Shown: piece by piece, positions 3,178-21,499 of the stretch | Layout: the number at the start of each line of letters is the position of its first letter | Numbering within the stretch: the first letter of the stretch is position 1 | From: Pigmentiphaga sp. NML080357 | GTDB lineage: Bacteria > Pseudomonadota > Gammaproteobacteria > Burkholderiales > Burkholderiaceae_B | Length of the DNA stretch: 64,000 nucleotides | Assembly: GCF_002188465.1 (NCBI RefSeq) | Contig: NZ_NINW01000024.1 | Span: 124,001-188,000 of the forward strand | Direction of reading: 5' to 3' | Position numbers and translations under genes: made by a program | The notes under the pieces: model-generated | What the model was told of the DNA's origin: nothing | Database searches by the model: none | Seen by the model: only the letters and a program-made list of their open reading frames with translations

Positions 3178-3533
3178 CAATGGCTGTTTTCCAGCGAGCG
3201 TAACGAGCCTTCGAGCCCCTCCAGCAGACGGCCGGCCTCGGTGCAGGGAGCGGGATCCTGGGCGATGGACTGCAATAGCGCGACGAGGCTGCCGGACTTG
3301 TCCTCACGACGGCTTGCGTGGTCGAAATGCGGGTTCAGCGCGCCGTTGGCGTTGTACTTGCCGTGCAGGAAATCCATCAGGTCCTGTTCGAAGTCTGCCA
3401 CGGCGACGTTGCCGATGCCGAGCAGGCATGCGCAAGGACCGCCACGCAGCGGCAAGTGGCCTTGTACCAGCCGTTGCCATCGCCCGGCGAGCGAGACGGC
3501 CTTCAACCTCGGATCGCTTGACGGTCCAGTCAC
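3177..3533 (-). CDS. Small conserved-looking hypothetical protein
   Basis: About 118 residues if read from GTG 3533, whose bases overlap the stop codon of the upstream bug gene. TTG 3506 would give 109 residues. Codon third positions are strongly GC, as in neighbouring real genes, and the peptide is well balanced, so it looks coding rather than a shadow. It contains a G-G-P-C-A-C-L-L-G segment near residue 33 followed by an acidic ADFEQDLMDFLHGKY helix, and no signal peptide or membrane segment is obvious. It is the last gene of the hyuA-hyuB-bug unit. I do not recognise the family and assign no function. Confidence 0.5.
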   Translation of the reverse strand: MTGPSSDPRLKAVSLAGRWQRLVQGHLPLRGGPCACLLGIGNVAVADFEQDLMDFLHGKYNANGALNPHFDHASRREDKSGSLVALLQSIAQDPAPCTEAGRLLEGLEGSLRSLENSH

Positions 3534-4531: not shown

Positions 4532-4557
4532 GGTGTCTCCTCTTGGGTGGTCGCCGC

Positions 4558-6321
4558 TTAGCGCGCCGGCATAGTTCGCCTGAGCGCCGTGGTCGCCGCT
4601 GTATCCGGCTTGCCTTCCCGGATCGCGACTTTATAGATTTCCTGCGCTTGCCTGACGCCGACATAGCCTTGCCGGACATCGTTGGCCACGGCGTCGGGAT
4701 CGCGCTGCTCGGGAGAGCCGAAGCCGCCTCCGCCGCCTGCCAGAAGATGCAGGGTGTCGCCTGCTTTTAAACGCTCGTTGCGGATCTTGCCGGCAACGAC
4801 CTGGGGGCCCGCGGCGGTGTGCCGGGTGACGAAGACATTATTGGGAAGGCCGGCGTGGCCGCCTTCCAGCCCCCATGGTGCGCATTGCATGCGATCGGCC
4901 TGGACGTCCACGGAAATCGGTGATCGCGCGCGCACGACGACCTCCGTTCCCAGGCCTCCCCGGTATTGGCCGGCGCCGCCAGAGTTTTCTCGCAAGGCAT
5001 GCCGTTCGATCAGGATCGGATACTTGGCCTCGAGCTGTTCGCAGGGGCTGTTGTGGGTATCGCCGTCGTTGGAGCAGACCACGCCGCTCATGCCGTCGCC
5101 AGACCGTTTCGCGCCCCAGCCGCCGCCCGTGGGGCCGATGAATCCTATGAAGAACTTGCCATCGGCCGGCGATATGCCGTGGAACAGGGCAATCACGAGG
5201 TCGGCATGGTGAGCCGCGATGGTGCGGTCGGGAATAGCCGACGCCATGGCCTTGAAGATGGTGTCGACTACGGTCATGGGGAACGTCATCCACTTGCGCA
5301 TGGCCGCCGGCTTGACGGCGCTGACGACGGTACCCTCGGGTACGATGACTTTCAGGGGCCTAAAGCTGCCGTCATTGATGGGGTAGTCGGTGGGCGAAGT
5401 GAGGCATTTATAGGCGACCTGGGCGCAGGAATACCCAGTGCTTGGGCCGGAGTTGAAGAAGCCGCGGACCTGGGGGCTGATTTCGGACAGATCGACCGTC
5501 AGTTCGTCGCCTTTCTTGATTACCCGGACCTTGATGGGAACCGGCTTGCCGATGTCCAGCCCGTCGTCGTCCATGAACGATTCCGCTTCGTAGACGCCGT
5601 CCGGGATGGATCGCGTACGCTCGCGCGCGGCGGCCTCGGATTGATCCATGATGTTCCGGATGGCGCCGAGCACAGGCGTGCGGCCATACCGTTCGAGCAG
5701 CTCGGCAAATCGCCGAGCGCCGGTATTGACAGCGACGATCTGCGCGCGCAGATCGCCCATGGCGCGCTCGGGCAGCCGCACATTGGCCTTGATGATCTCG
5801 ACGAGATCTTCGTTGACGACGCCTGCGCGCTGATACTTCATCACGGGGATTTGGATGCCTTCGGAATAGATATCCGACGTGACGCCTCCCAGCGAGCCGC
5901 CTACATCGGGCCAGTGCGCCATGCAGCACGCCCAGGCCGTGAGCTTGCCATCGAAAAATATGGGTTGGCTGAAGGTGAAGTGATTGAGGTGGCTGCCGGT
6001 GATGTACGCGTCATTGGTGACGAGGATGTCGCCGGGCTCTATGCCTTCCATGCCGTAGCGGCTTAGTTTGGCATCCACGGCATTGGCCATGCCACGGATG
6101 AAGCTGGGCAGCCCGATGCCAATCGATATGGTCTGGCCTTCCGCAGTGAACAGGCCTACCGTGAAATCCAGGGCTTCGTAGATGATCATGTTGTAGGCCG
6201 TCCGCATGAGATTGGTCTTCATCTCTTCGGTCACGGCGAGGACGCCGTTGCGAACGATTTCGGTCAGCACGGCGTCCGGGCGGTCATCGGCGCGAGTGGG
6301 ATGGGAAGTGGCGCTGGGCAT
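4558..6321 (-). CDS. hyuB: Hydantoinase B/oxoprolinase family subunit
   Basis: 587 residues. The open frame extends upstream into hyuA, but ATG 6321 fits the family start and overlaps the hyuA TAA by one base (TAATG), which implies translational coupling. Recognisable HyuB segments are the N-terminal TEEMKTNLMRTAYN region, the VTNDAYITGSHLNH motif, the MAHWPDVGG motif, and a C-terminal glycine-rich LLAGGGGGFGSPEQR tail. HyuB pairs with HyuA in ATP-dependent opening of hydantoin, N-methylhydantoin or 5-oxoproline-type rings, and related enzymes carboxylate acetone or acetophenone. The neighbours (Bug, IclR) indicate a regulated uptake and catabolic unit. The substrate is not determinable. Confidence 0.9.
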   Translation of the reverse strand: MPSATSHPTRADDRPDAVLTEIVRNGVLAVTEEMKTNLMRTAYNMIIYEALDFTVGLFTAEGQTISIGIGLPSFIRGMANAVDAKLSRYGMEGIEPGDILVTNDAYITGSHLNHFTFSQPIFFDGKLTAWACCMAHWPDVGGSLGGVTSDIYSEGIQIPVMKYQRAGVVNEDLVEIIKANVRLPERAMGDLRAQIVAVNTGARRFAELLERYGRTPVLGAIRNIMDQSEAAARERTRSIPDGVYEAESFMDDDGLDIGKPVPIKVRVIKKGDELTVDLSEISPQVRGFFNSGPSTGYSCAQVAYKCLTSPTDYPINDGSFRPLKVIVPEGTVVSAVKPAAMRKWMTFPMTVVDTIFKAMASAIPDRTIAAHHADLVIALFHGISPADGKFFIGFIGPTGGGWGAKRSGDGMSGVVCSNDGDTHNSPCEQLEAKYPILIERHALRENSGGAGQYRGGLGTEVVVRARSPISVDVQADRMQCAPWGLEGGHAGLPNNVFVTRHTAAGPQVVAGKIRNERLKAGDTLHLLAGGGGGFGSPEQRDPDAVANDVRQGYVGVRQAQEIYKVAIREGKPDTAATTALRRTMPAR

Positions 6322-8393
6322 TATCGGGAGACTCCCAGTTCGATGTGGAGATTGCCGTACTCGTCGACAGCGAGCGCATCTTCGGGAAAGAGCACCGTGG
6401 TGGAGGCGTGCTCTTCGATCAAGGCGGGACCGACGATACGATGGCCCGCGAGCAGCATGTCCCGGCGGTAGACCGGTGTCGGCATGCGGGGTTGGTCCTC
6501 GGAGAAATAGACGCCGCGTTCGGCGATGCATGCTGCATCCGCCGCCTCTGAGGGAGCACGCGCAATGCGCTCCATAGGCGGCTTGGGCATGATGCCTGTG
6601 GTTGCCGCCCGCAATGTCACGATCTCCACCGGCTCGTCCGGTGCGCAAGTGCCGTAGCGCTGTTGGTGAACTTGATCGAATCGCGCCTTGATGGCGGCCT
6701 TGTCCTCTGCTCGCAGGGATGCTTCATCCAGTTCTACGGTGACGGAGTGCTCCTGTCCAACGTAGCGCATGTCCGCGGAATAGGCGACGAGGACTGAGGA
6801 CGGAGCCACGCCTCCTGTCGCAAGCGCTTTCCGTCCCTGGCCGGCGAGAGCGTCGAGCTGCTCCATGATCTCGGCTAGATGTGCCTCTTCGAGCTTCTTG
6901 AAGCTCGTGCGGACGTAGTCGTACCGGAGGTCGGAGTGAAGCATGCCGAAGGCGCAGAAGTGGCCCGGCGCGCGGGGGATGATCAGGTGTTTCATGCCGA
7001 TCTCGCGCGCCACCGCCGAAGCGTGCAAGGGGCCGGCGCCGCCGTAGGCGATCAGTGTGAACGACGCGGCGTCCAGGCCTCGCTCGGTCGACACGCCCTT
7101 TACCGCGTACGACATCTTGGTGGCGGCGATGCGGAGTATGCCTTCGGCCGCCTGTTGCACGCTGATGCCTAGCGGCGCCGCGATTCTCGTCTCGATGGCA
7201 CGACAAGCGGCATCGGAGTCGAGTTGCATCTGCCCACCCAGGAATCGCTCCGGGCTGAGTCGACCGAGTACCAGGTTGGCGTCGGTGACGGTCGGCGCAA
7301 CACCCCCACGGCCGTAGCAGGCCGGGCCAGGGTCGGCGCCCGCGCTTCGAGGCCCGACGTGCAGGGCGTTGCCATGATCGAGCTCGGCAATGCTGCCGCC
7401 GCCGGTTCCGACCTCGAATACGTCCACGAGCGGGATCTGCACCGGCAGTCCTTGGTTGTATCCGCCTACCAGTGCGAGATTGCCGGTGAGCACGCGCCCC
7501 TCCAGAATGACGCCCGCCTTGGCGGTCGTGCCGCCCATGTCGAATGCGATGGCGTTCCCGATGCCAAGGCGATCGCATAGCGCATGCGCGCCTACCACAC
7601 CGGCCGCCGGCCCCGACTCGAGCATGCGTACGCATTCGCGGCGCGCTTGGCCGGATGCGTACAGTCCGCCCGTGGATTGAACGAGCAGGAACGATCCTTC
7701 GAATCCCTCCCGCTGGAGCCGGGTCTCGATCTCGCCCACGTACCGGCTGACGATAGGGCCGACGTAGGCATTTGCCACCGTAGTCGAACAGCGCTCGAAC
7801 TCGCGGTATTCCTGCGAGAGCTCATGCGATGCCGTCACGAACACATGTGGCAGCCGTTGCTGGACGATCTGCTTGACGCGTATCTCGTGCGATGGGTTGG
7901 CATAGCAGTGGAGCAACAGAATGGCTACTGCCTCGATATCCTGGGCCAGAAGTTCGTCGCAAATGCGGTGCACGCTCGCTTCGTCCAGAGGGACATGGAC
8001 CTCGCCATCCGCAGTCAGGCGCTCCGTCACTTCGAAGCGCGATGCCCGCTCTACCAGAGGCACGTGCTTGGAAAAGAACAGGTTGTAGGCATCGGGACGG
8101 TTGATGCGCCCGATTTCATAGATGTCGCGGAACCCCTGGGTAATGAGCAACGCAGTGCGCGCGCCCCGCCGTTCCAGCAGCGTGTTGATGGCCACCGTGG
8201 AACCATGGAGAAAGACTTCCGCATCCCTGAACCTTGTCCGGGCCTGGTCCACGCCATTTGCGATGCCGTCCACCAGATGATCGGGGGTGCTGAGCGACTT
8301 GCCGAGCGACAGGGTCCCAGTGCTGGCATCGAAATACGCCACGTCCGTAAAGGTGCCGCCTATATCGGCGGCAAGCCGACTGCCTTGTCTCAT
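6321..8393 (-). CDS. hyuA: Hydantoinase A/oxoprolinase family subunit
   Basis: 690 residues. An upstream in-frame ATG exists (8438), but ATG 8393 has a strong GAGGAGG ribosome-binding site and directly precedes the conserved LAADIGGTFTDV phosphate-binding segment (residues 7-18). A second ATPase-type motif, FDMGGTTAK, lies near residues 284-292. This ASKHA-fold subunit supplies the ATP-dependent half of the HyuAB enzyme. It is first in the hyuA-hyuB-bug-orf operon and divergent from the IclR gene at 8653. The shared intergenic region holds two matching palindromic sites. Confidence 0.9.
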   Translation of the reverse strand: MRQGSRLAADIGGTFTDVAYFDASTGTLSLGKSLSTPDHLVDGIANGVDQARTRFRDAEVFLHGSTVAINTLLERRGARTALLITQGFRDIYEIGRINRPDAYNLFFSKHVPLVERASRFEVTERLTADGEVHVPLDEASVHRICDELLAQDIEAVAILLLHCYANPSHEIRVKQIVQQRLPHVFVTASHELSQEYREFERCSTTVANAYVGPIVSRYVGEIETRLQREGFEGSFLLVQSTGGLYASGQARRECVRMLESGPAAGVVGAHALCDRLGIGNAIAFDMGGTTAKAGVILEGRVLTGNLALVGGYNQGLPVQIPLVDVFEVGTGGGSIAELDHGNALHVGPRSAGADPGPACYGRGGVAPTVTDANLVLGRLSPERFLGGQMQLDSDAACRAIETRIAAPLGISVQQAAEGILRIAATKMSYAVKGVSTERGLDAASFTLIAYGGAGPLHASAVAREIGMKHLIIPRAPGHFCAFGMLHSDLRYDYVRTSFKKLEEAHLAEIMEQLDALAGQGRKALATGGVAPSSVLVAYSADMRYVGQEHSVTVELDEASLRAEDKAAIKARFDQVHQQRYGTCAPDEPVEIVTLRAATTGIMPKPPMERIARAPSEAADAACIAERGVYFSEDQPRMPTPVYRRDMLLAGHRIVGPALIEEHASTTVLFPEDALAVDEYGNLHIELGVSR

Positions 8394-8451
8394 GTTCCTC
8401 CTCGTGGCGACGGGTGTCTCGACGGCTATGAAGGTCAACCGTCTTTTTAAG

Positions 8452-8465
8452 GTAACCTAGGTTAC
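8452..8465. promoter_or_regulatory. Palindromic operator candidate, site 1
   Basis: GTAACCTAGGTTAC is a perfect 14-bp palindrome, 59 bp upstream of hyuA. It is repeated imperfectly at 8529-8542. IclR proteins bind such dyads, and the neighbouring divergent gene is an IclR regulator. Confidence 0.65.
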
Positions 8466-8528
8466 TTCTAATCGTCAATGCCAGTATAAAAAAATGTTTT
8501 ATGATTGATATCAATAAGTTATTTGTAG

Positions 8529-8542
8529 GTAACCTGGGTTCT
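8529..8542. promoter_or_regulatory. Operator candidate, site 2 (degenerate copy)
   Basis: GTAACCTGGGTTCT matches the perfect palindrome at 8452-8465 at 11 of 14 positions, in the same intergenic region and 77 bp away. The AT-rich stretch between the sites (TATAAAAAAATG, TTTTATGATTG) is where the divergent promoters would lie. Confidence 0.5.
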
Positions 8543-8652
8543 TGCGATGCACGGAAGTAGAGGAAATGGTGCGGGCAGGCGGCTGGTTAATATGAAGGGG
8601 TCGCCGGCATGCGTCCGACGTGCCGGACATCATCCGAAGGCGAACAGAAGCG

Positions 8653-9477
8653 ATGACTGAAGAAATGGGGCAGGGCGACGGGGCGAAGGGAGAACAGATC
8701 GCGGCGGTACAACGTGCCCTCGAAATTCTCGAAGCGCTGGCGGATGCCCAGGACGGAATGTCGTTCACCGACATCGTGACGCTGCTCGATGTGAACAAGG
8801 CCATCGCGTTCAAGCTGATCAATACTTTGATTGGACGCCGCTACGTTTTTCGAGACGAGACATCCGGGCGCTATTACCTGACCTTCAAGATGAGCAACCT
8901 GGGGTTGCGGAAGATGTCCAAGTCGCTGCTGCTGGACCAGAGCAATTCCATCCTGCGTGAGTTGGCCGACGCAACGGGCGAGTTGATCCGCCTGGCTGTC
9001 GTCGAAGGCGACACCATTACGTGGGTATCTTCCATCCTTGCTCAAAGCCGCCTATTGCAACTCAATCCTAGCTATGGGTTCGAGGTGCGCTTGCACCTGC
9101 ATGCGGCTGGCAAGGCCTGGTTGTCCACCATGAGCAGCGAGCGGGCGATCGGCCTGGTGCTGAAGAATGGCCTGGAGCCCGCGACCGAGCATTCTCTGCG
9201 CACAGTGGAAGCGATCCTCGAGGATTTGAAAGTCTCCGCACAGCGTGGCTATGCGATTTCCTATGAGGAGCATTCGCTGGGTGTGGGGGCAATAGGGGTG
9301 CCGGTTCTCGTTCGCCGGTTCGGCGAAAAGAAAGAGTGCGTCGGCGTCATTACGATGGCTGCGCCGTGCGCACGAATGAACAGGCAGGCTCTGGAGGGGA
9401 GCGCCCCCCGCCTGCTCGATGCCGCGGCGCGTCTCGCTTCGATCTGGCCGGTGGGCGATGGACGAACCTATTCGTGA
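8653..9477 (+). CDS. IclR-family transcriptional regulator (hyu operon)
   Basis: 274 residues from ATG 8653. A GTG at 8620 in the same frame would add 11 residues but has no ribosome-binding site. The N-terminal winged helix-turn-helix (about residues 20-75: AVQRALEILEALADAQDGMS...DVNKAIAFKLINTL) is followed by the IclR effector-binding domain with the HLHAAGKAWLS and GYAISYEEHSLGVGAIGVPV signatures. It is divergent from hyuA across a region with two palindromes, so it probably controls the hyuAB-bug operon and itself. The ligand is likely the operon substrate (inference). Confidence 0.9.
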   Translation: MTEEMGQGDGAKGEQIAAVQRALEILEALADAQDGMSFTDIVTLLDVNKAIAFKLINTLIGRRYVFRDETSGRYYLTFKMSNLGLRKMSKSLLLDQSNSILRELADATGELIRLAVVEGDTITWVSSILAQSRLLQLNPSYGFEVRLHLHAAGKAWLSTMSSERAIGLVLKNGLEPATEHSLRTVEAILEDLKVSAQRGYAISYEEHSLGVGAIGVPVLVRRFGEKKECVGVITMAAPCARMNRQALEGSAPRLLDAAARLASIWPVGDGRTYS

Positions 9478-9490
9478 AGCGGCGTGTCGG

Positions 9491-10222
9491 TCACTTCAAC
9501 TGGTTCAACTTCCGGACCGCTTCGCGCAGCGGTTCGATCAATACCTCGGGATTGAAGCGCGACGCCGGCGTCACGAGCGACAGCGCCGCTATGCATGCCC
9601 CCTTGGCATCGAACACCGGCATCGCCACCGACTGCACGCCGGGCGTGTCCGTTCCCTCCGAGATCGCATAGCCGCGCGCCGCGATTTCCTTCAACAGCGC
9701 CGGCTTGGCCAGCACGGCGCCCTGGCGCTGGAGCATGTCGCGGTATGCCGGGCTGGAAAACGCGGTCAACACGCGTCCGGACGAACTGTCATTCAGCGAT
9801 AGCAGCGTACCGACCTTGACGTCGGCGCGCACTGCCACCTGCTGTGCCTCCACGCGCCGCACCAGGCGCACGCAATTGCCGTTCAGGACCGCGAGCGAGG
9901 CGGTTTCTCCTACCTGAAGCACGAGTTCCTGCATGACGTGGGCAAACCGCTCGCCCAGGTTGGCTTGCACCAACGCGGTTTCGCCTACCAGCGCCGCATG
10001 CAGCGAGAGCCGGTAGCTGCCTTGTTCCGTCTGCTCGAGCCAGCCGGCCTCAACCAGGGTCAGCAGCTTCTGGTAGGTGGTGGCGCGGCTGCTGCCGGAC
10101 GCGGCGGCGAGTTCCATCAGTTTCATGGGGCGGTCGGATTTGCCCAGCAGGTCCAGCAGCTGCAGCGTCTTCAGTACCGAACTCAGCGGCCGGACCCCGC
10201 CGGCCTCCCGCGCTTCGAGCAT
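9491..10222 (-). CDS. IclR-family transcriptional regulator (unknown operon)
   Basis: 243 residues. The helix-turn-helix domain (about residues 12-66: SSVLKTLQLLDLLG...AAASGSSRATTYQKLLTLVEAGWL) precedes the effector domain with GVQSVAMPVFDAKGACIAALSL. The gene is convergent with the preceding IclR gene (13 bp between stop codons) and divergent from the operon starting at 10388. Two 17-bp inverted repeats lie in the divergent promoter region. It is the probable regulator of that operon. Confidence 0.9.
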   Translation of the reverse strand: MLEAREAGGVRPLSSVLKTLQLLDLLGKSDRPMKLMELAAASGSSRATTYQKLLTLVEAGWLEQTEQGSYRLSLHAALVGETALVQANLGERFAHVMQELVLQVGETASLAVLNGNCVRLVRRVEAQQVAVRADVKVGTLLSLNDSSSGRVLTAFSSPAYRDMLQRQGAVLAKPALLKEIAARGYAISEGTDTPGVQSVAMPVFDAKGACIAALSLVTPASRFNPEVLIEPLREAVRKLNQLK

Positions 10223-10276
10223 GGCGCCACTTCCTTGTCATAAAAGTTCTTGCATTCCGGGATGAGGAGTATAGAA

Positions 10277-10293
10277 TGATTCAAATAGAATCA
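10277..10293. promoter_or_regulatory. 17-bp inverted repeat, operator half of a tandem pair
   Basis: TGATTCAAATAGAATCA has 6-bp perfect arms around AAATA. Its centre is exactly 20 bp from the centre of the second site, and the two share the core ATTCWAATAGAAT. This spacing puts both sites on the same helix face, as expected for cooperative binding by the adjacent IclR protein. Confidence 0.7.
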
Positions 10294-10296
10294 TAT

Positions 10297-10313
10297 GTAT
10301 TCTAATAGAATAC
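10297..10313. promoter_or_regulatory. 17-bp inverted repeat, second operator of the pair
   Basis: GTATTCTAATAGAATAC is a perfect dyad with 8-bp arms and a single central base. It is the better of the two sites between the IclR gene and the 581-residue unknown gene. Confidence 0.7.
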
Positions 10314-10387
10314 AACAACAGGGCAAACACGAGTTCCGACGGCTTTCCCGACAGCGCCAGGCGGCGCGGTGACGACAGGAGTAGTGC

Positions 10388-12133
10388 ATGGACTTTGCCG
10401 ACGTGGAAGAGATCGCCCCGGTCTCCGCTCCGCATGATTCCCCGGACCGCGAACCTCGGATCCGCAGCGCCCGAGTGCTGATGACGCCGGCCCGCATGGG
10501 CGTGATGCAGGCCAGCCGGCTGAGCGTGTCGCGCCTGTTGATGGCCAAGGCCATACGCGAGCGCTGGACCATCGAACGGGTGCGCTGGCAGATCGACGAC
10601 CGGGCGCGCGGCACCGCGCTGTATCGCATCGACACCGGTGCGATGCCCTTCGACTTCATCGTGCATTCGTTCGAGCCCAAGATGGAAGGGCGCGCGGGCC
10701 GCATCATCGGCCGCGCCTGGGACATGATGGCGGCGCTGGTGGAAGGACCTGTATCGGAAGAGGACATCCGCACCACCGGCGAAGAGATTCCCAAGCTGTA
10801 TGCCGGCCGCGCGACGCCCGGCACGTTGATCTGGGCCCGCTCGAACCGCAGCGCGCGCGTGTTCAACCATACGGTGGAGGCCCTGGCGCAGGGACGCCAG
10901 CCGGACGTGCCCACGCTGGCCGAGGTCTGCTACTTGATGCGCAATACCGGCCTGGACGGCAACGGTACCTTCGGCACGCGCTCATTCCGGTCGCTGGAGA
11001 ACACCCATCCATTGCGCCGGCCGCTCGATGCGCAGATGCTGTGCGCATACATGATGCGGGTGTTCTCGGTAGACCTGGTCAATCACCTGGCGCGCTGTGC
11101 CTGCGCCCGGTCGGCCCGGCTGGCTCCGGAGATCGAGCGTTTCCTGGGCGTGGGCAATGCCTCCGCGCTGGGGCTGGTCCTGTACGTTAACAATCATCCC
11201 AAGCTGGTGCACCACTGGATCATGGCGCGCGAGCAGGCCATCGTCGGCGCCAAGCGCCTGCGCGTGGGAGCCAGGGATGCGCAACTGGGAATGCTGCTCG
11301 CGCTATTGGACAAGGCCATCGTCTTCCGGCGCGAAGACAGGATGGACTACGAGCAATTCACCGCCAGCGCGGACATTGCGGCCGACCTCGCCGCCATACG
11401 CGGGCACGTGCAAGCGCTGTACGACACGGGCAGGGTGCAGGGCCGCATCGAACGCTATCCGCTTGCTGCGCTGTGCGACGCGCTGGACGGCACGGTGCAC
11501 GAGGAGGCGTTCGAGACCTTCCTTGGACTCTTGACCGAATTGGTGCCGGACCTGTGCGACCGGCTGGCCGAAGGGCTGGCGGTGGACGAGGAATACGCCA
11601 CCGATCCTTCCATGTCCATCGGCCACCTGCGCGACCTGCTGCATGCCGAGTATGGCTGGGCCTTTGATATCGACCTGGACGGCGAGGGCGCGTCGAAATT
11701 CGTCTGGTACAAGTCGGCCACTGCCGAGGAGCCGCGGCGTGGCCCGAGGGCCGAGGCGGGCGACGTGTTCAACCTCGGCCTGGACCTGCCGCGCCTGGTG
11801 GTGGGCCTGGAGCGCGAGATCGCCCAGCGGCCGCCCGCGACCAGCGTGGCGCGTTTCCTGCTGGAACGGCCGGAGTACCGCTTCATCGTGAGCCGGGTGC
11901 AGACGCTCAGCGGCATGGCCTTTCATTCGCCGCACACCAACATCATGGGCGAGCAATTCGTGCCATGCGAGATCACCCGCTTCATCAACATCGGCATCCA
12001 CGGCATCGACAAGACCCGCGACTATCTGCAGCGCAACCTGCGGGGCGTCATCTACCAGGGCGCGCCGACGGCGGCCGACATTGCCGCCGGCGCCGATCCC
12101 CATTGGTTCTATCCTCAGGAGCCCGTGCTATGA
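10388..12133 (+). CDS. Uncharacterised 581-residue cytoplasmic protein
   Basis: A complete frame from ATG 10388 (preceded by GACAGGAGTAGTGC) with uniform GC-rich codon use. No signal peptide, membrane span, nucleotide-binding loop or metal-cluster motif is evident. Distinctive segments are YLMRNTGLDGNGTFGTRSF near residue 183, GNASALGLVLYVNNHPKLVHHW near 256, and SPHTNIMGEQFVPCEITRF near 519. It begins a four-gene operon: this gene, a 255-residue unknown (ATGA overlap), an atypical M19 dipeptidase (ATGA overlap) and a Bug receptor. The tight coupling to the second unknown suggests a two-component enzyme, but no reaction can be assigned. I do not recognise the family. Confidence 0.8.
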   Translation: MDFADVEEIAPVSAPHDSPDREPRIRSARVLMTPARMGVMQASRLSVSRLLMAKAIRERWTIERVRWQIDDRARGTALYRIDTGAMPFDFIVHSFEPKMEGRAGRIIGRAWDMMAALVEGPVSEEDIRTTGEEIPKLYAGRATPGTLIWARSNRSARVFNHTVEALAQGRQPDVPTLAEVCYLMRNTGLDGNGTFGTRSFRSLENTHPLRRPLDAQMLCAYMMRVFSVDLVNHLARCACARSARLAPEIERFLGVGNASALGLVLYVNNHPKLVHHWIMAREQAIVGAKRLRVGARDAQLGMLLALLDKAIVFRREDRMDYEQFTASADIAADLAAIRGHVQALYDTGRVQGRIERYPLAALCDALDGTVHEEAFETFLGLLTELVPDLCDRLAEGLAVDEEYATDPSMSIGHLRDLLHAEYGWAFDIDLDGEGASKFVWYKSATAEEPRRGPRAEAGDVFNLGLDLPRLVVGLEREIAQRPPATSVARFLLERPEYRFIVSRVQTLSGMAFHSPHTNIMGEQFVPCEITRFINIGIHGIDKTRDYLQRNLRGVIYQGAPTAADIAAGADPHWFYPQEPVL

Positions 12134-12897
12134 CCCAGGCCGTCGCCGATTCACCCCGCATATTCGACGTCTCCGTGCGCGAAGCGCGCATGTGCATAGA
12201 CCGCATCCTGTTGGTGTGCGGCCTGCCGCCCGGCTATGTGCATGGCGTGCGCGAGGTCGTGCTGCTGTCGCAGTCCATGGGACTGGGAGGTTTCCGCGCG
12301 CTCTACGAAGGGCATGCCGGGTTGCGCGAAGGATTTCTCGATCGCGTCGTAGTCGCCGATGCCGAGGACGGCGCCCTGGTCGTCGACGGGGCGGGCATAC
12401 ACGCATGGGTGTTGCTGCCCACGCTGATGGACCTGGGCGTGGAACGGGCGCGCGCCGCGGGCCGCGCCACATTGCGGGTGTCGGGCGTGACGGCCGTGCA
12501 TGAGCTGCACGTCATGGCGGGTCTGGGCAAACGCTACGGCATCGGCGCGGAAGTCTCGCAACCCGACGAGACCGGCGGACGAGGCCAGAAGGCGGTCGTC
12601 ACGCTCTTCAACACGGCCCGGCCCCGCGGCATCGATGACTGGGATCCGCTGCTGGCCCACGCCATCCGATACGGCTATCCCGTCGAGGCCGGCCTGTGGC
12701 GCGCCATCCATGCCTTGTCCAACCAGGCGCTGGCGCCCGATTCGGTGGTGTCGCGGCGCCATGCCGGGCCGGTCATCCTGCGCGACGACGGCACGCTGCA
12801 AGGCAGGCCGCCCGCCGACGACGACATGGACCTGAACATGCTGCGCCACGTTCCCTCCAGCCAAGGATGCGCTTCGCGCGAAGGACAGCCGACATGA
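12130..12897 (+). CDS. Uncharacterised 255-residue protein, coupled to upstream unknown
   Basis: ATG 12130 overlaps the upstream stop in an ATGA, indicating translational coupling. An in-frame upstream extension would run into the previous gene and is rejected. The N-terminal REARMCIDRILLVCGLPPG helix, a middle VLLPTLMDLGVERARAAGRAT segment and a C-terminal VVSRRHAGPVILRDDGTLQG stretch are present, with no signal peptide or membrane helix. The alternation of helical and glycine-rich segments suggests a soluble enzyme subunit or substrate-binding partner of the 581-residue protein. No family is recognised with confidence and no function is claimed. Confidence 0.75.
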   Translation: MTQAVADSPRIFDVSVREARMCIDRILLVCGLPPGYVHGVREVVLLSQSMGLGGFRALYEGHAGLREGFLDRVVVADAEDGALVVDGAGIHAWVLLPTLMDLGVERARAAGRATLRVSGVTAVHELHVMAGLGKRYGIGAEVSQPDETGGRGQKAVVTLFNTARPRGIDDWDPLLAHAIRYGYPVEAGLWRAIHALSNQALAPDSVVSRRHAGPVILRDDGTLQGRPPADDDMDLNMLRHVPSSQGCASREGQPT

Positions 12898-13901
12898 ACG
12901 CACCCCATTCGAAGGCAGGCATCATCGTCGACGGCCTGTCGATGCCGGTGCCGGAGCGACGCTGGTTCGAGGAGTGGCGGGAGGCCGGCATCGGATGCGT
13001 CAACACCACGGTGGCGGTGTGGGAGAACGCCGCCGAGACCCTGGCCTTGCTGGGCAAATGGCGGGTCGTGCTGGAGCAGAACCGGGATCTCGTCGCGCCG
13101 GCCGCCAGCGTGGCCGAGATCGAGGCCGTGGCGGCCTCGGGGCGCACCGCCGTGATGTTCGGCTTCCAGAACACGGCGCCGGTGGAGCATAACCTGGACC
13201 TGTTCGCCGTGTTCCGCCAGCTGGGGGTGTGCGTGATGCAATTGACGTACAACCTGCAGAACTATATCGGCTGCGGCTATTGGGAAGAAAAGGACACGGG
13301 CATTTCCTCGCGCTTCGGCAAGCTGGCGCTGGAGGAGATGAACCAGCTGGGCATCCTGATCGACCTGTCCCATTGCGGCGAACGCACGACGCTGGAAGCC
13401 ATCCAGATGTCGGCCAAGCCGGTGGCCATCACCCATGCCAACCCGCGCGAATACGTAGGAGCGCCGGTATACGGCGCAGGGCGCCTGAAGCAGACAGAAG
13501 CCCTGCTGGAGCTGGCCAGGCGGGGCGGCGTGATCGGCCTTACGCCCAATCGCAACATGACCAAGTACGGCGCGGCCACCACGCTCGAGCAGTTCGGCGA
13601 CATGGTGGCCTGGACCGTGGACCGGATCGGCATCGACGCCGTGGCCATCGGCACCGACTACTGTCCGGGGCATCCCCGATCGGTGCGGACCTGGTGGCGC
13701 TATGCGAAGTGGTCGCGCCAGAGCGCGCCGGCCAAGGAAATGGAAATCGCGCCGCATGAGGGATGGTCGGAGTGGATGCGCACCCCGGCGGGGTTGCAGA
13801 ACGTCATTGCCGAGCTGGACCGGCGCGGTTTCCGCCAGGCCGACATCGACAAGATCATGGGAGGAAACTGGATGAGGCTTTTGCGTGAAACCATAGGTTG
13901 A
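12894..13901 (+). CDS. Membrane dipeptidase (peptidase M19)-like protein with altered metal site
   Basis: 335 residues from ATG 12894, which overlaps the previous stop as ATGA. The TIM-barrel amidohydrolase layout of M19 is visible: IIVDGLSM at the N-terminus, MFGFQNTAPVE, IDLSHCGERT (H160), AITHANPRE (H181) and a late GTDY segment. Two departures stand out. The N-terminal H-x-D zinc motif is replaced by V-D-G-L, and the bridging Glu position of the usual E-G-G motif appears as Q92. There is no signal peptide, unlike secreted renal-type dipeptidases. The protein may use one metal or act on a non-peptide amide. Operon partners are two unknown proteins and a Bug receptor. Confidence 0.8.
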   Translation: MNAPHSKAGIIVDGLSMPVPERRWFEEWREAGIGCVNTTVAVWENAAETLALLGKWRVVLEQNRDLVAPAASVAEIEAVAASGRTAVMFGFQNTAPVEHNLDLFAVFRQLGVCVMQLTYNLQNYIGCGYWEEKDTGISSRFGKLALEEMNQLGILIDLSHCGERTTLEAIQMSAKPVAITHANPREYVGAPVYGAGRLKQTEALLELARRGGVIGLTPNRNMTKYGAATTLEQFGDMVAWTVDRIGIDAVAIGTDYCPGHPRSVRTWWRYAKWSRQSAPAKEMEIAPHEGWSEWMRTPAGLQNVIAELDRRGFRQADIDKIMGGNWMRLLRETIG

Positions 13902-13954
13902 ACAGCCGACGGTCCGTCTGAGCGGCGGGCCGGACCTCTTGAAGGAGCGTGGCC

Positions 13955-14944
13955 ATGAAAAGCTGGGTGCTGAAGTACGCGGTAGGAGCGGGAGTGGTGA
14001 TGGCGCTGGCGGCCGCGTTGCCCGCCCGCGCGCAGGACGAGGCATTTCCGAACAAGCCCATTCGTCTGCTGGTCGGCTTTGCGCCCGGGGGCGGCACCGA
14101 CGTCGTGGCGCGCGTGATCGCGCCGCGCCTGTCCGAGAACATCGGCCAGTCGGTGGTGGTGGAGAACAAGCCGGGCGCGAGCGGCATCGTGGCGGGCGGT
14201 ATCGTCGCCAAGGCGCCGCCCGACGGGTATACGCTGATGATGGGCGTGGTCTCGGTCAATACCATCCTGCCACATCTCTTTACCAACATCCCCTACGATA
14301 CGGCGCGCGATTTCACGCCGGTAATCCTGACGGCGTCAGTGCCGCACTTCGTCGCCGTCCATCCCTCGCTGCCGGTTCATACGCTGGCCGGACTCATCGC
14401 CTACGCCAAGGCCAACCCGGGCAAACTCAGCTTTCCGTCGGCGGGCAGCGGCACCACGCCCCATATCGCGGGGGAAATGTTCAAGAGCATGGCGGGTGTC
14501 GAATTGATGCACGTGCCGTACAAGAGCACCGGGCAATCCATGCCGGACCTGTTGGCGGGCCGGCTGCAGGTCGGTTTCGACACCTATCCGACGACCGCGC
14601 CGTACGTAAAGACCGGCAAGCTGCGCGCCCTGGCCGTGACGGGGACCAAGCGCCTGCAGGAATTCCCGGAATTGCCCACGGTGGCGGAGTCGGGGCTGCC
14701 GGAATATCGCTTCGCCACCTGGTACGGCATTTTTGCTCCACGGGATACGCCCGCGGCGATCGTCAATCGCCTGCATGCGGAATTCGCCAAGGCGATGGCG
14801 GCTCCGGACGTGCGCGAGCAACTGGTGAAGATGGGGGTGGACGGTACCGAGACGCGCACCCCCGAAGAGTTCGCCGCACTGGTGCGGGCCGATACGGAGC
14901 GCTTCGGAAAGGTGGTGAAGGCGGCCGGCGTGAGGCTGGACTGA
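13955..14944 (+). CDS. Bug-family periplasmic solute-binding protein
   Basis: 329 residues. ATG 13955 sits 7 bp after GAAGGAG and is preferred to the in-frame GTG at 13949. The signal peptide ends near P-A-R-A-Q, and the mature protein starts DEAFPNKPIRLLVGFAPGGGTDVVARV, typical of Bug. It is 53 bp downstream of the M19-like gene and probably the receptor for the substrate of the preceding unknown enzymes. Confidence 0.92.
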   Translation: MKSWVLKYAVGAGVVMALAAALPARAQDEAFPNKPIRLLVGFAPGGGTDVVARVIAPRLSENIGQSVVVENKPGASGIVAGGIVAKAPPDGYTLMMGVVSVNTILPHLFTNIPYDTARDFTPVILTASVPHFVAVHPSLPVHTLAGLIAYAKANPGKLSFPSAGSGTTPHIAGEMFKSMAGVELMHVPYKSTGQSMPDLLAGRLQVGFDTYPTTAPYVKTGKLRALAVTGTKRLQEFPELPTVAESGLPEYRFATWYGIFAPRDTPAAIVNRLHAEFAKAMAAPDVREQLVKMGVDGTETRTPEEFAALVRADTERFGKVVKAAGVRLD

Positions 14945-16851: not shown

Positions 16852-17634
16852 CTAGAGCATCGCGCTCAGCATGCGCCGGCCGCCCAGCAATTCCGGCAGC
16901 AGGGCTTCCACCATTTGGTCCAGCGTGTAGCGATTGACCGACGCCACCAGACTCATTGCCGCCACGGTGCGGCCCGTCTGGTCATAGATCGGGATGGCGA
17001 TGGAGCGTACGCCTAGTTCGAGTTCCTCGTCGCTGGTGGCATAACCCAGGCGCCGTGCTTCGTCCAACAGTGCGAGCAGTTCCGGGATCTCGGTGCGGGT
17101 ACGGGGCGTGAGCGCGCGGCGCGGCATCCTGCCCAGCAATTGCGTGACGTCGTCGGCCGCCAGCGCCGCCATCAATACCCGGCCTGTCGCGGCGCAGTGC
17201 GCCGGCAGGCGAGATCCCATACCCAGGCCGTCCGACAGGCTGCGGCGCGTGGCGGCGCGTGCGACGAACACCACTTCGCCGCCATCGAGCACCGCCAGCG
17301 AACTCGATTCCTTGGTTCGCTCGCTGATGGTCTCCAGCACCGGCTGCACCAGCTTGGGCAGGGGGCTGGAAGTGACATAGGCGTGCCCCAGCCGGAGCGC
17401 CCGCGGCGCCAGCCGGAAATACCGGCCATCGCTTTCCACGTAGCCGAGCCGTTGCAGGGTCAGGAGCGAGCGGCGGGCGGTGGCGCGCGGATGGCCCGTG
17501 ATCTCGGCCGCCTCGCTGAGCGTGAGCGGGCCCGAGCGGATGCCGAACGCCTCGATGATGGCCAAGCCCTTTTCCAGGCCGGCCACGTATTCCTTGTCTT
17601 CCTTGGTACGGGTATCGGGCGTGGTCGTCGTCAT
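16852..17634 (-). CDS. tphR: IclR-family regulator, TphR-like
   Basis: 260 residues. The winged helix-turn-helix (about residues 18-75: LEKGLAIIEAFG...TGHPRATARRSLLTLQRLGY) and effector domain (LPAHCAATGRVLMAAL, LGVRSIAIPIYDQTGRTVAAM) are typical of the PcaR/PobR/TphR branch of IclR, which activates aromatic catabolism operons. It is divergent from a Bug gene followed by a terephthalate-dioxygenase-like cluster, the arrangement known for tphR in Comamonas. The shared promoter region contains two GTTCG/CGAAC inverted repeats. The symbol rests on context; the inducer is untested. Confidence 0.82.
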   Translation of the reverse strand: MTTTTPDTRTKEDKEYVAGLEKGLAIIEAFGIRSGPLTLSEAAEITGHPRATARRSLLTLQRLGYVESDGRYFRLAPRALRLGHAYVTSSPLPKLVQPVLETISERTKESSSLAVLDGGEVVFVARAATRRSLSDGLGMGSRLPAHCAATGRVLMAALAADDVTQLLGRMPRRALTPRTRTEIPELLALLDEARRLGYATSDEELELGVRSIAIPIYDQTGRTVAAMSLVASVNRYTLDQMVEALLPELLGGRRMLSAML

Positions 17635-17652
17635 GGAGATAAGCGTGCGAGC

Positions 17653-17667
17653 GTTCGTTTTGCGAAC
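17653..17667. promoter_or_regulatory. Inverted repeat GTTCG-N5-CGAAC
   Basis: GTTCGTTTTGCGAAC is a 5-5-5 dyad just upstream of the tphR start. The IclR family often binds 15-bp sites of this form, so this is a candidate autoregulatory operator. Confidence 0.6.
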
Positions 17668-17700
17668 ATTTTAACCACTTTTCTTGATCGTCGGCTATAC

Positions 17701-17716
17701 GCGAACTATTGTTCGC
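17701..17716. promoter_or_regulatory. Inverted repeat GCGAAC-N4-GTTCGC
   Basis: GCGAACTATTGTTCGC has 6-bp perfect arms. It uses the same GTTCG/CGAAC half-sites as 17653-17667 but in the opposite order, 65 bp upstream of the tphC-like gene. It is a candidate TphR activator site. Confidence 0.55.
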
Positions 17717-17781
17717 TTTGCGACTTTATGTTCGGACGGGAAACGACGTTCCGTCCGCATTTTCCGTAGACGAGGTCAAGG

Positions 17782-18759
17782 ATGAGACAACCTGCATCGA
17801 TGGCCTGTGCCGCATTGGCGGCATGGGCGGTTTCCTGTGGCGTGGCGCACGCCGAACCGGGCGCGTTTCCGAGCCGTCCGGTGCGCATCGTGGTTCCGTA
17901 CTCGGCAGGCGGCACGGCCGACGTGTTGCCCCGGATCATCGGCGAGAAGCTCAATGCGATGTGGGGCCAGCCGGTCATCATCGACAACCGGCCGGGTGCC
18001 GGCGGCAACATCGGCGCCGACATCGTGGCCAAGGCCGCGCCCGACGGCTATACGTTGATGGCGACGCCGCCCGCTCCGCTCGTCATCAATCAATACCTGT
18101 ACAAGAGCCTGCAGTTCGATCCGGAGCGCTTCGTGCCCGTGGCCGTGCTGGCGCGCGTGCCGAACGTGCTGGCGGTGAAGAACGACCTGCCCGTGAAATC
18201 GGCGCAGGAATTCATCGGCTACGCGCGCAAGAACGATGGCCAGGTGACCGTGGCGACGCAGGGCAACGGCACCACATCCCACCTGACGGGCGCGCTGGTC
18301 GCCTCTCAGGCGAACCTGAACTTCGTGTTCGTTCCCTACAAGGGAACATCGCCGGCGCTGGCCGACCTGATGGGCGGCCAGGTCGACGCGTTCTTCGACA
18401 ACATCAGCTCGACGTTCCGCCAGCACGAGTCGGGCAAGGTGCGCATCCTGGCCGTCACCAGCGCGCAGCGCAGCCCGCTGTTGCCCAAGACGCCGACCCT
18501 GGCCGAGTCCGGTCTCCCCGGCTTCGACGTCAGCACCTGGTTCGGCGTGGTCGCGCCGGCGGGCACGCCGGCCGACGTGGTGAAAAAGCTCAATGCCTCC
18601 ATCGCCGAAGTTCTGAAAATGCCCGACGTCAAGCAGAAATTCATCGAGCAGGGCGCCGAGGTGGGCGGCGATGCGCCGGCGCAGATGGCTGAGTTCATGA
18701 AGGCCGAGCGCATCAAGTGGAAGAAGGCCATCGACACGGCCGAGGTCACCATTAACTGA
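17782..18759 (+). CDS. tphC: Bug-family receptor, TphC-like (terephthalate uptake)
   Basis: 325 residues. Signal peptide [24 protein letters not shown]; mature [28 protein letters not shown]. The Bug hallmarks [15 protein letters not shown] and APDGYTL are present. It is the first gene of the dioxygenase operon (23 bp before the next gene). In Comamonas tph operons TphC is the terephthalate receptor that works with a shared TctAB-type permease, and that permease is not in this window. The ligand is inferred from gene order and from the similarity of the downstream oxygenase. Confidence 0.88.
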
Positions 18760-18782
18760 TTTTTGCAACAACGAGGAAGTCC

Positions 18783-20027
18783 ATGAGTCACAGCGAGATT
18801 CACGAACCCCGGCGGACCTGGGAGGCCGGCCTGACCCGGGTGCCTTATTGGCTCTATCGCGACCGGGACGTGTACGACGCCGAGCAAAAGCGGGTGTTCC
18901 AGGGGCCGACCTGGAACTACTTGTGCCTGGAGGCCGAGCTTGCCGAACCAGGCGCATACCGCACCACCTTCGTCGGCGAGATGCCGGTCATCGTCACGCG
19001 CGACGAAGAAGGCGAGCTGCAGGCCTTCGAGAATCGCTGCGCCCATCGCGGCGCCTTGATCGCGCTCGACGACGGCGGCAAGACGCGCGATTTCGCCTGT
19101 GTCTACCATGCGTGGCGCTACGACCTGCAGGGCAACCTGCGCGGGGTGGCGTTCCAGCAGGGCGTGAACGGCAAGGGCGGGATGCCGCCAGGGTTCCGGA
19201 TGGAGGAGCATCACCCGCGCAAGCTGCGCACCGCCAGCGTGGCCGGCTTGGTGTTCGGCAGCCTGGACGAGGACGTGCCGCCCATCGAAGAGTACCTGGG
19301 CGATGAAATCCTGGAGCGCATCGAGCGCGTGCTGTGCAAGCCGGTGGAAGTCATCGGCCGCTTCAAGCAGACCATTCCGAACAACTGGAAGCTGTACATG
19401 GAGAACGTCAAGGACTCCTACCATGCCAGCCTGCTGCACGTGTTCTTCACCACCTTCAATATCAACCGGCTGTCGCAGAAGGGCGGTGTGATCGTGAGCG
19501 AGACCGGCGCCCACCACGTCAGCTATTCCAAGGTCTCGCACCAGCCGCAGCCCAACGCCGAGTACAGCGCCGAGAAGCTGCGCTCCGACAAGGAGGGCTA
19601 CGCGCTGGCCGATCCGAGCATGCTGGACGGCTGCGACGAGTTCGGCGACGGCGTGACCCTGCAGATCCTGTCGGTGTTCCCCGGCTTCGTGCTGGCGCAG
19701 ATCCAGAACACGATCGCCGTTCGCCAGATCCTGCCGGCGGGCATGGACAAGACCGTGCTGAACTGGACATATCTCGGATTCGCGGACGACACGCCGGAGC
19801 TGCGGCGCATGCGCCTGAAGCAGTCCAACCTGACCGGGCCGGCCGGCTTCGTGTCCATGGAGGACGGCGCGGTGGGCGGCTTCGTGCAGCGCGGCATCAG
19901 GGGTACCGACGATGAACAGGCGGTGCTCGAGATGGGCGGCGACGGCATCGAAACACAAGAGAATCGCACCACGGAAGCGTCGGTGCGCGGGTTCTGGAAC
20001 GCCTATCGCGGCTACATGGAGATCTGA
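18783..20027 (+). CDS. tphA2: Rieske dioxygenase large subunit, TphA2-like
   Basis: 414 residues; ATG follows AACGAGGAAGTCC. The Rieske [2Fe-2S] ligands are C86-x-H88 and C106-x2-H109 (CAHRG, CVYHAW). The mononuclear iron site shows D211 with H214 and H219 in [10 protein letters not shown], and D361 in SMEDGAVGG is the probable third ligand. Long stretches such as [25 protein letters not shown] and [17 protein letters not shown] agree with recalled Comamonas TphA2. The predicted role is 1,2-dioxygenation of terephthalate to a cis-dihydrodiol dicarboxylate with TphA3 and electrons from TphA1. A related para-substituted benzoate substrate remains possible. Confidence 0.88.
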
Positions 20028-20030
20028 AGC

Positions 20031-20504
20031 ATGGCGGAGTTTTCGCAAGAACGGCTGGGCGCCCTCAATGCCGCCTATGCGCGCTGCATCGACAACGACG
20101 AGGTCGAGGCATGGCCGGCATTTTTCGAGGAACGCTGCCTGTACGTCGTCAATACCGCGGACAACCACGCTGCCGGCATGCAGGCGGGCCTGATCTACGC
20201 CGATACGCGCGCCATGCTTCAGGACCGCGTCTCGGCGCTGCGCGAGGCCAATGTCTATGAACGCCACCGCTACCGCCACATCGTCGGCCTGCCTTTCGTG
20301 CTGGGCATTGAAGATGGCGCGGCGCGCGTGGAGACGCCGTTCCTGGTGGTGCGCATCATGCGCGACGGCGGGACCGAGGTGTTCGCTTCCGGGCGCTACC
20401 TGGACCGCGTGGTCGAAGGCGCCGACGGGCAGTTGAAGTTCGCCGAGCGCATCGCGGTCTGCGATAGCCAGAACATCGATACGCTGCTGGCGATACCGCT
20501 ATGA
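20031..20504 (+). CDS. tphA3: Aromatic-ring-hydroxylating dioxygenase small subunit, TphA3-like
   Basis: 157 residues, starting 3 bp after the large-subunit stop. The SnoaL/beta-subunit cystatin-like fold is suggested by NAAYARCIDNDEVEAWPAFF at the N-terminus and the RYRHIVGLPFV and FLVVRIMRDGG beta-strand segments. It forms the structural hexamer partner of the Rieske alpha subunit and has no catalytic centre. Its stop overlaps the start of the next gene (ATGA). Confidence 0.87.
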   Translation: MAEFSQERLGALNAAYARCIDNDEVEAWPAFFEERCLYVVNTADNHAAGMQAGLIYADTRAMLQDRVSALREANVYERHRYRHIVGLPFVLGIEDGAARVETPFLVVRIMRDGGTEVFASGRYLDRVVEGADGQLKFAERIAVCDSQNIDTLLAIPL

Positions 20505-21475
20505 CGGCCGGCCGCAAGCGCATCGCGATCGCATTGGGCGACGCCAACGGCATCGGCCCGGAGATCGCCGTCAAGGCGGCTTTCGCGTTGCGGGACGAGC
20601 CGGTCGACTGCGTGCTGGTGGGCGATGGCTTCGTATTGCGAGAGCAACTGGTCCGCCATGCACCGGGCATGTCACTCACCGCGTTCGTGCCCGGCGCCCG
20701 GCGCCAACCGGATCAATTGCTGTGGGCCAAGGTGGCGGCGTTGCCGCCATCGGAGTACGTTCCGGGCGAAGTGCGCGCCGCGGCGGGCGCGGCCATGGTG
20801 GCCTATGTGCGCGAGGCGGTGCGATTGGCGCAGGCCGGCGCGGTCGATGCCGTGGTGGGCTGTCCCCATTCGGAAACTTCCGTGGCGCGGGCGGGTATTC
20901 CGTTCTCGGGCTATCCGGGCCTGATCGCGCAGTTGACCGGCGCCCCGCCCGACAGGGTCTTCCTGGTGCTGGTTTCGCCGGAGCTGAAGATCGGCCATGT
21001 GACCTTGCACGAACCTGTGCGGACGGCGTTGGGCAGGCTGGATACCCAACTGGTCGTGGATGCGGCGCTGGCCACCATCGAGGGCGCGCGCATGATCGGC
21101 ATCGCCCAGCCGCGGCTGGGCATCTTCGGTATCAATCCGCACGCGGGCGAGGATGGCCTGTTCGGCGACGAGGACCAGTCGATTACCGAACCGGCGGTCG
21201 CGCGCCTGCGTGCCATGGGACTGGACGTGGATGGCCCGCAGGGCGCCGACCTGATGCTGGCGCAGCGCCGCCACGACGTCTATCTCGCCATGTTCCACGA
21301 CCAGGGCCACATTCCGGTCAAGCTGCTGAGCCCACGGCAAGCCAGTGCGCTGTCGGTGGGCGGAGGCGTCTGTTTCAGCAGCGTGGGGCACGGCTGCGCC
21401 TTCGATATCGCCGGCCGGGGCGCGGCCGACGCATCCGCCGTGCTGCGCACCGTGCGCCTGCTGGCGGGCCTTTAG
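20501..21475 (+). CDS. tphB: PdxA-like dihydrodiol dehydrogenase, TphB-like
   Basis: 324 residues, start overlapping the tphA3 stop. PdxA-family features are visible: the IALGDANGIGPEIAVKA N-terminus, the VGCPHSETSVARAG segment and the C-terminal MFHDQGHIPVKLL motif with its conserved metal-binding His and Asp. In tph operons this homologue oxidatively decarboxylates the cis-dihydrodiol of terephthalate to protocatechuate with NAD+. A true pyridoxine-pathway role is less likely because the gene is embedded between dioxygenase and reductase genes. Confidence 0.87.
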   Translation: MTAGRKRIAIALGDANGIGPEIAVKAAFALRDEPVDCVLVGDGFVLREQLVRHAPGMSLTAFVPGARRQPDQLLWAKVAALPPSEYVPGEVRAAAGAAMVAYVREAVRLAQAGAVDAVVGCPHSETSVARAGIPFSGYPGLIAQLTGAPPDRVFLVLVSPELKIGHVTLHEPVRTALGRLDTQLVVDAALATIEGARMIGIAQPRLGIFGINPHAGEDGLFGDEDQSITEPAVARLRAMGLDVDGPQGADLMLAQRRHDVYLAMFHDQGHIPVKLLSPRQASALSVGGGVCFSSVGHGCAFDIAGRGAADASAVLRTVRLLAGL

Positions 21476-21499
21476 TTCTGTTGACCCGGCGGGACCGGG

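Follow-up and report, generated by a model that had tools for sequence, protein, structure and literature searches.

The closest described systems to the operon considered here are the pathway of homarine catabolism, the Ldh_2 dehydrogenases (PF02615), for example, AllD and DpkA, the DUF3726 family, and the Pseudomonas aeruginosa M19 protein 2i5g. In the first of these, N-methylglutamate dehydrogenase (Mgd) reportedly has a role (Ferrer-Gonzalez et al. 2026, Nat Microbiol 11:1531, as cited by another paper). The operon lies at positions 10388 to 14944 of a 64,000-nucleotide stretch of DNA from Pigmentiphaga sp. NML080357 (contig NZ_NINW01000024.1, positions 124,001 to 188,000), here called the window, and consists of four genes, A to D, with a divergent gene for an IclR-type regulator upstream. 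We see about an even chance that it is an IclR-controlled unit for uptake and catabolism and the sister of a homarine-type operon of marine bacteria, with an enzyme made up of A and B acting first and C acting on its product. The compound broken down is probably related to homarine-like nitrogen compounds.

A single scan of genome contigs with patterns from A alone yielded 45 loci, which by their organism names fall in the Alpha-, Beta-, and Gammaproteobacteria. The A proteins of these loci have 49 to 93% identity, with Pigmentiphaga among the best matches, and homologs of B and C were present in all 45. A separate labeling of the neighbors gave B in 38 of the 45, probably because of an overlap filter and stricter labeling. 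The end of A and the start of B overlap by 4 bases (−4) at 41 of the 45 loci; the spacing is −1 in two others and +10 in one, and in L032, no start codon was found. Beyond the labeled genes, no further conserved neighbor was found in the 45 loci except for one possible case in four of them, the clusters listed having, as judged by eye, the look of antisense or out-of-frame shadow open reading frames (ORFs). Of 33 loci, the window itself (L077) among them, 29 have a homolog of B or of the DUF3726 family (PF12525) no more than 1.5 kb from A. Counting its own genome, A was detected in 12 of 200 genomes of the family of the window (single-sequence search) and in 29 of 398 genomes of the phylum (profile search), and therefore, its occurrence is sporadic but wide; carriers include rhizobia, Pseudomonas, Azospirillum, roseobacters, and one haloarchaeal plasmid. 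An earlier note on this DNA had proposed the layout of a dedicated uptake-and-degradation operon and had asked for its conservation in related genomes. Both points are supported: the genes form a regulated unit, and the A-B-C linkage extends over three proteobacterial classes, far beyond the Burkholderiales.

Plasmid records hold a distant version of the operon, with genes for a LysR regulator, an aldehyde dehydrogenase, an M19 protein, a BCCT or glycine-betaine ATP-binding cassette (ABC) transporter, A, a DUF3726 protein, and an Ldh_2 protein. This sister operon was found in Ruegeria, Phaeobacter, Aminobacter, Shinella, Vibrio, and further genomes, and a similar set recurs in the 14- to 20-kb stretches L108 to L126, 17 of 19 of which have the M19 gene. 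Of the five sister records with annotation, four list DUF3726, and BCCT or glycine-betaine-type ABC transporters are seen in the annotated records. By profile and by tree, the sister A belongs to the same family; in a tree of 63 A sequences, the marine-type sequences need one change (support 92/50), with a long-branch warning for L062 and for L070, the latter having IclR neighbors and having been grouped as marine. A, DUF3726-like, and M19 genes also occur together in the window, whereas its operon has IclR instead of LysR, a Bug receptor instead of BCCT or ProXVW, and neither an aldehyde dehydrogenase nor an Ldh_2 gene.

In Phaeobacter (L074/L107), the sister copy adjoins a four-subunit "sarcosine oxidase" operon that looks like an Mgd, since its beta subunit is nearer to glnT-linked genes than to a soxBDAG cluster: its identity is 79.6% and 71.6% with genes of Paracoccus pAMI6 and Rhizobium indigoferae, whose clusters contain glnT and glutamate-synthase-type genes, compared to 51.8% for the Salipiger soxBDAG cluster with glyA and serine ammonia-lyase. 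As a separate observation, positions 4866 to 14047 of a Pseudosulfitobacter locus (L129) carry an Mgd-like operon, genes for N-formylglutamate deformylase and formimidoylglutamate deiminase, and an IclR gene. For the aldehyde dehydrogenases encoded in L073, L074, and L065, all sister operons, the best-scoring models were those of 2-oxoglutarate-semialdehyde/2,5-dioxovalerate dehydrogenase, with scores below the curated cutoffs. The homarine operon published in 2026, known here through a citation alone, is probably this marine sister operon; its gene content would then be the LysR-aldehyde dehydrogenase-M19-A-DUF3726(-Ldh_2) cluster, with the families of A, B, and C in common with the window. 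The homarine operon goes by the name homABCDER; a set of five genes and one regulator agrees in number with the LysR-type cluster, a hint rather than a test. Among the matches listed, a literature search on the homarine pathway gave only a citing paper (PMC13390433), which cites a report of a role of Mgd in homarine catabolism. Among the matches listed in our literature searches, with most subscription papers beyond reach, there was no description of A, B, or the IclR-type operon, and searches on DUF3726 and on locus names of Sinorhizobium meliloti, as guessed from its map, had no result. The earlier view that the first enzymes of the pathway are undescribed may be right as far as the structure and biochemistry of A are concerned but, with the marine sister operon at hand, is not clearly so for the genetics.

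Gene A (10388 to 12133, plus strand) encodes a protein of 581 amino acids, the putative catalytic subunit, and represents a family and a fold without a recognized relative in the libraries and the PDB searched; as to the novelty of the fold, this statement covers the PDB. No family matched in Pfam, NCBIfam, PHROGs, or PADLOC, none of 35 A sequences matched Pfam at an E value of ≤0.01, and the best E values against PDB sequences were 0.22 (single sequence) and 0.26 (profile of the 35 sequences). The structure model, built from 46 sequences, has a mean predicted local distance difference test score (pLDDT) of 85.1 and a predicted template modeling score (pTM) of 0.88, but a Foldseek search of 350,542 PDB chains and a search of a viral fold library both gave no match at an E value of ≤0.001. 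Adenylosuccinate lyases filled the top 20 Foldseek rows, but with E values of at least 0.14, probabilities of at most 0.07, and template modeling (TM) scores of 0.07 to 0.12, and this kinship was rejected. Over the 35 sequences, which come from two branches about 30% identical, 41 columns are invariant, among them R105, W111, D112, R151, N153, S155, R157, Q171, Y182, R185, R224, N257, H270, W424, W440, Y441, R450, R498, and R503. Loops 100 to 109 and 191 to 196 have a pLDDT of <50 in the model and yet contain the invariant residues R105, G191, G193, and G196, which suggests that they become ordered only on contact with a ligand or a partner. A metal- or cofactor-binding signature was not recognized in A.

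The earlier note had found no known family for either A or B and had called for profile and structure searches of both. For A, this assessment held in the libraries searched; B (255 amino acids; 12130 to 12897, plus strand), in contrast, could be placed, by its model and by profile comparison, as a protein of Ldh_2-type fold and a divergent relative of DUF3726. Its model (pLDDT, 81.3; pTM, 0.73) matched 23 PDB chains at an E value of ≤0.001 (best, 3.6e-6), all with titles of dehydrogenases or reductases, with TM scores of 0.37 to 0.57 by query length and root mean square deviations of 3.5 to 15.7; ureidoglycolate dehydrogenase and piperideine-2-carboxylate reductase are among them. The 45 B sequences are 228 to 266 amino acids long; 8 of them matched PF02615 at an E value of ≤0.05 (best, 3.9e-4), and profile comparison of B with four Ldh_2 sequences alone was weak (P = 0.029). 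The fold is shared, but the SHG, G[TSV]NP, and GGxKG motifs, chosen in part from these four reference sequences, are each missing from all 45 B sequences, whereas three, three, and four of the four references, respectively, have them. The B of the window itself matched no Pfam or NCBIfam family above noise; PF12525 matched neither this B at an E value of ≤1 nor the 45 B sequences at ≤0.05. The tie to DUF3726 comes from the common place beside A, from an hhalign comparison with DUF3726 sequences (P = 1.6e-4 over 190 columns, at a probability of only 50.7%), and from bridging sequences in six loci (L011, L091, L092, and L096 to L098, the last three from one genus) that match the profiles of both at an E value of ≤1e-3. 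The tail of B is conserved and poorly ordered in the model.

A second copy of the module in the same genome (L062, 2850 to 10157) has genes for a LacI-type regulator, a fused A/B-like protein, C, a Bug receptor, and an aldehyde dehydrogenase whose best model is betaine-aldehyde dehydrogenase. Its A is 37% identical to that of the window and continues in frame into about 330 B-like residues, and its C is 79.6% identical to that of the window. The fused domain gave hhalign P values of 3.4e-4 with B, 7.4e-5 with DUF3726, and 0.035 with Ldh_2, and it matched Ldh_2 in Pfam with an E value of 0.0048. Together with the gene overlaps and the co-conservation, the fusion suggests that A and B form one two-subunit enzyme. 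On a haloarchaeal plasmid of Natrinema (L070, 8148 to 10678), A stands with a B of 317 amino acids that matches Ldh_2 at 4.8e-9 and is perhaps a less reduced form of B.

C (335 amino acids; 12894 to 13901, plus strand) is an amidohydrolase-like protein of the M19 clade that matches Peptidase_M19 (PF01244) with 205 bits (E = 2.1e-60; cutoff, 26) and has 2i5g as its nearest PDB sequence (9.1e-53). The binuclear zinc ligands of M19 enzymes are HxD, Glu, His, and His, with the roles of ligand and substrate residues taken from renal dipeptidase. Three zinc-ligand positions are changed in C. In an alignment of 78 sequences of the clade, which includes repeats of the organism's own genes, every sequence has Leu in place of the first zinc His, Gln in place of the bridging Glu, and Tyr in place of the substrate-site His, and none has Asp at the position two residues after the first His; among the sequences with a residue at the site, 76 of 77 and 77 of 77 retain the two later metal His and 76 of 76 the later Asp. 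The altered metal site that the earlier note had pointed out is thus real, but it is a trait of the clade, which includes P. aeruginosa 2i5g with the same pattern as C, and not peculiar to this operon. In a Shinella M19 protein (L071, 6970 to 7965), an Asp takes the place of one of these two later metal His. We take 2i5g to be PA5396 of the dgcAB dimethylglycine operon of P. aeruginosa, and presumably the product of the pepD gene before dgcAB; a literature search on PA5396 gave nothing. According to PMC12093977, pepD stands ahead of dgcAB in Vibrio natriegens and P. aeruginosa.

The ORFs of the window bore out the gene positions and the two ATGA overlaps described before. B starts inside the overlap with A at 12130, the ORF from 11965 being an upstream extension, and C starts in the second overlap at 12894, with a 401-amino-acid ORF as its extension. 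After a gap of 53 bases follows gene D (13955 to 14944, plus strand; start codon ATG 13955 or GTG 13949) for a Bug/TctC periplasmic solute receptor (PF03401, 1.3e-78). The regulator R is encoded divergently (9491 to 10222, minus strand; HTH_IclR, 3.9e-14; IclR_C, 2.2e-25), and the paired operators proposed for it were found as two inverted repeats at 10277 to 10293 and 10297 to 10313, which would function as IclR operators. Both have 6-base arms and a 5-base gap, stand 20 bases apart, and share the core TTCNNNTAGAA, which occurs at these two sites only within the 64 kb; palindromes with 6-base arms as such are not rare (41 across the window). L014 to L017 each have a single copy, ATTCTAATAGAAT, ahead of A, and of three further loci checked, L018 and L059 have none and L061 has a loosely similar one only. 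Between 10200 and 15000, there were no terminator-like sites (2.1 in shuffled sequence) and no promoter-like sites on the plus strand.

Neighbors in the 45 loci, 8 of which have cut flanks, were labeled by the best BLAST match to a small library. An IclR gene was labeled in 34 loci and parts of one kind of ABC transporter in 40, but a Bug gene in only 5. The Bug receptor, said before to complete the unit, is present in the window but is the least conserved part of it; a Bug gene after C is also found in L014 to L017, in Variovorax (L061), and in the second copy of the same genome (L062). An acetolactate-synthase-like thiamine diphosphate (ThDP) enzyme is encoded in 22 loci and a close class III aminotransferase in 12, the two never being labeled in the same locus; an aldehyde dehydrogenase is encoded in 15 loci and RidA in 14. 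Hydantoinase-like genes lie near the haloarchaeal copy but do not belong to the unit, because HyuA was labeled in only 1 of 45 loci. Elsewhere in the window, positions 3533 to 9477 hold another regulator-receptor-hydrolase unit, with genes for hydantoinase/oxoprolinase A and B, a Bug receptor (minus strand), and a divergent IclR-like protein (8620 to 9477, plus strand). At 16852 to 22528, consecutive genes encode an IclR regulator, a Bug receptor, the alpha and beta subunits of a Rieske dioxygenase, a PdxA-like dehydrogenase, and an Fer2/flavin adenine dinucleotide reductase, which together look like a terephthalate-type cluster for an aromatic acid.

In our model, D would capture the substrate outside the cell. 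A would be the catalytic part of the A:B enzyme, and B a former Ldh_2 dehydrogenase that has lost its catalytic and cofactor motifs and has been kept as a partner, its conserved tail completing A. The substrate of the A:B enzyme may be a small, zwitterionic compound of nitrogen, with an N-heterocycle or a betaine like homarine as the likeliest candidate, and C, with its fewer metal ligands, would convert the product and thereby set free an amine or a semialdehyde. In some relatives, an aldehyde dehydrogenase would take over the product, and an aminotransferase or ThDP enzyme is encoded nearby. The two IclR-type aldehyde dehydrogenases tested (L060 and L053) scored best with succinate-semialdehyde dehydrogenase (SSADH), below the curated cutoffs. 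If the core chemistry is shared, these four-carbon models, set against the five-carbon models of the marine branch, leave room for a substrate without a 2-carboxylate in the branch of the window. An extended form of this model, which we consider unlikely to hold as a whole, has A as a new enzyme fold that lacks a recognized metal or flavin site and opens an N-heterocyclic ring, pyridinium or similar, with the defunct dehydrogenase B as its obligate partner. The marine branch would use 2-carboxylated rings such as homarine and form a five-carbon product (N-methylglutamate or 2-oxoglutarate semialdehyde), and the IclR branch, including the window, would convert rings without the carboxylate to a four-carbon product like gamma-aminobutyrate (GABA) and on to succinate.

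Several observations weigh against the main model. The A proteins of the two branches are only about 28 to 33% identical, and therefore, the substrate may have changed completely. The sister operon itself varies, with Ldh_2 absent from several loci and Liv-type transporter labels in L067. Mgd-like genes adjoin it only in Ruegeria L073, Phaeobacter L074/L107 and L076 (in the latter a gamma subunit), and L111; they are unlabeled in the other 18 of the 19 stretches L108 to L126 and in L065 to L067, L075, L071, and L072, and the third close relative of the Phaeobacter beta subunit, in Pseudosulfitobacter L129 (78.1%), has no glnT beside it. The B-like identity of the fused domain in L062 is weakly supported. 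Furthermore, genes for an aldehyde dehydrogenase, an aminotransferase, and an Ldh_2 protein are absent from the window operon and are known from its relatives, and most IclR-type relatives carry a transporter that, as scored in S. meliloti, is polyamine-like. The latter also fits a different explanation, possible though on the unlikely side, in which the substrate is an open-chain amide or polyamine derivative, such as a glutamylated or N-acylated amine: C cleaves the amide, and the aminotransferase and SSADH-type dehydrogenase of the relatives finish a GABA-like product, with no ring chemistry involved. The ABC transporter parts of a single kind at 40 of the 45 loci are consistent with this, as are the S. 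meliloti permeases and ATPase, which score best with PotB, PotC, and potA, all below the cutoffs (there was no model for the receptor), the aminotransferase in 12 of 45 loci, and the SSADH-like dehydrogenase that follows the aminotransferase in S. meliloti L060, which is not one of the 45 loci. However, the fold that B retains is that of a family with the cyclic-imine reductase 1wtj among its members, and the sister operon is accompanied by betaine transporters and, in a few genomes, by Mgd.

That A and B are a sensor, scaffold, or carrier serving C and the transporter, and no enzyme at all, would agree with the lack of a recognized metal or cofactor signature in A and of dehydrogenase motifs in B; the 41 invariant columns of A, among which Arg, Trp, Tyr, Asn, and Gly are frequent in the manner of an active site, make it quite improbable. 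Even less can be said for C as an ordinary dipeptidase in an operon for the use of dipeptides or cell wall peptides, with A and B as accessories: the PF01244 match and the annotation of C as a dipeptidase in public records speak for it, but the zinc His and Asp, the bridging Glu, and the substrate-site His, in the roles given above, are all replaced in the 78 sequences. Trigonelline, an N-methylpyridinium betaine of plants, is close to homarine in its chemistry, and the operon occurs in rhizobia, Azospirillum, and Paraburkholderia. We give very little credence to it as the substrate, since S. meliloti without pSymA fails to grow on trigonelline, according to PMC4207669, but has A-B-C on pSymB, so that A-B-C is at least not sufficient for this growth.

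In sum, A stands for a widespread family of about 580 residues with neither a family assignment nor a PDB fold match in the libraries searched, and its constant linkage to B and C provides a small, expressible gene set for a direct test. If A does open the ring when compounds of the homarine type are broken down, this would account for one step by which a common osmolyte of the sea is turned over and would also point to a counterpart on land.

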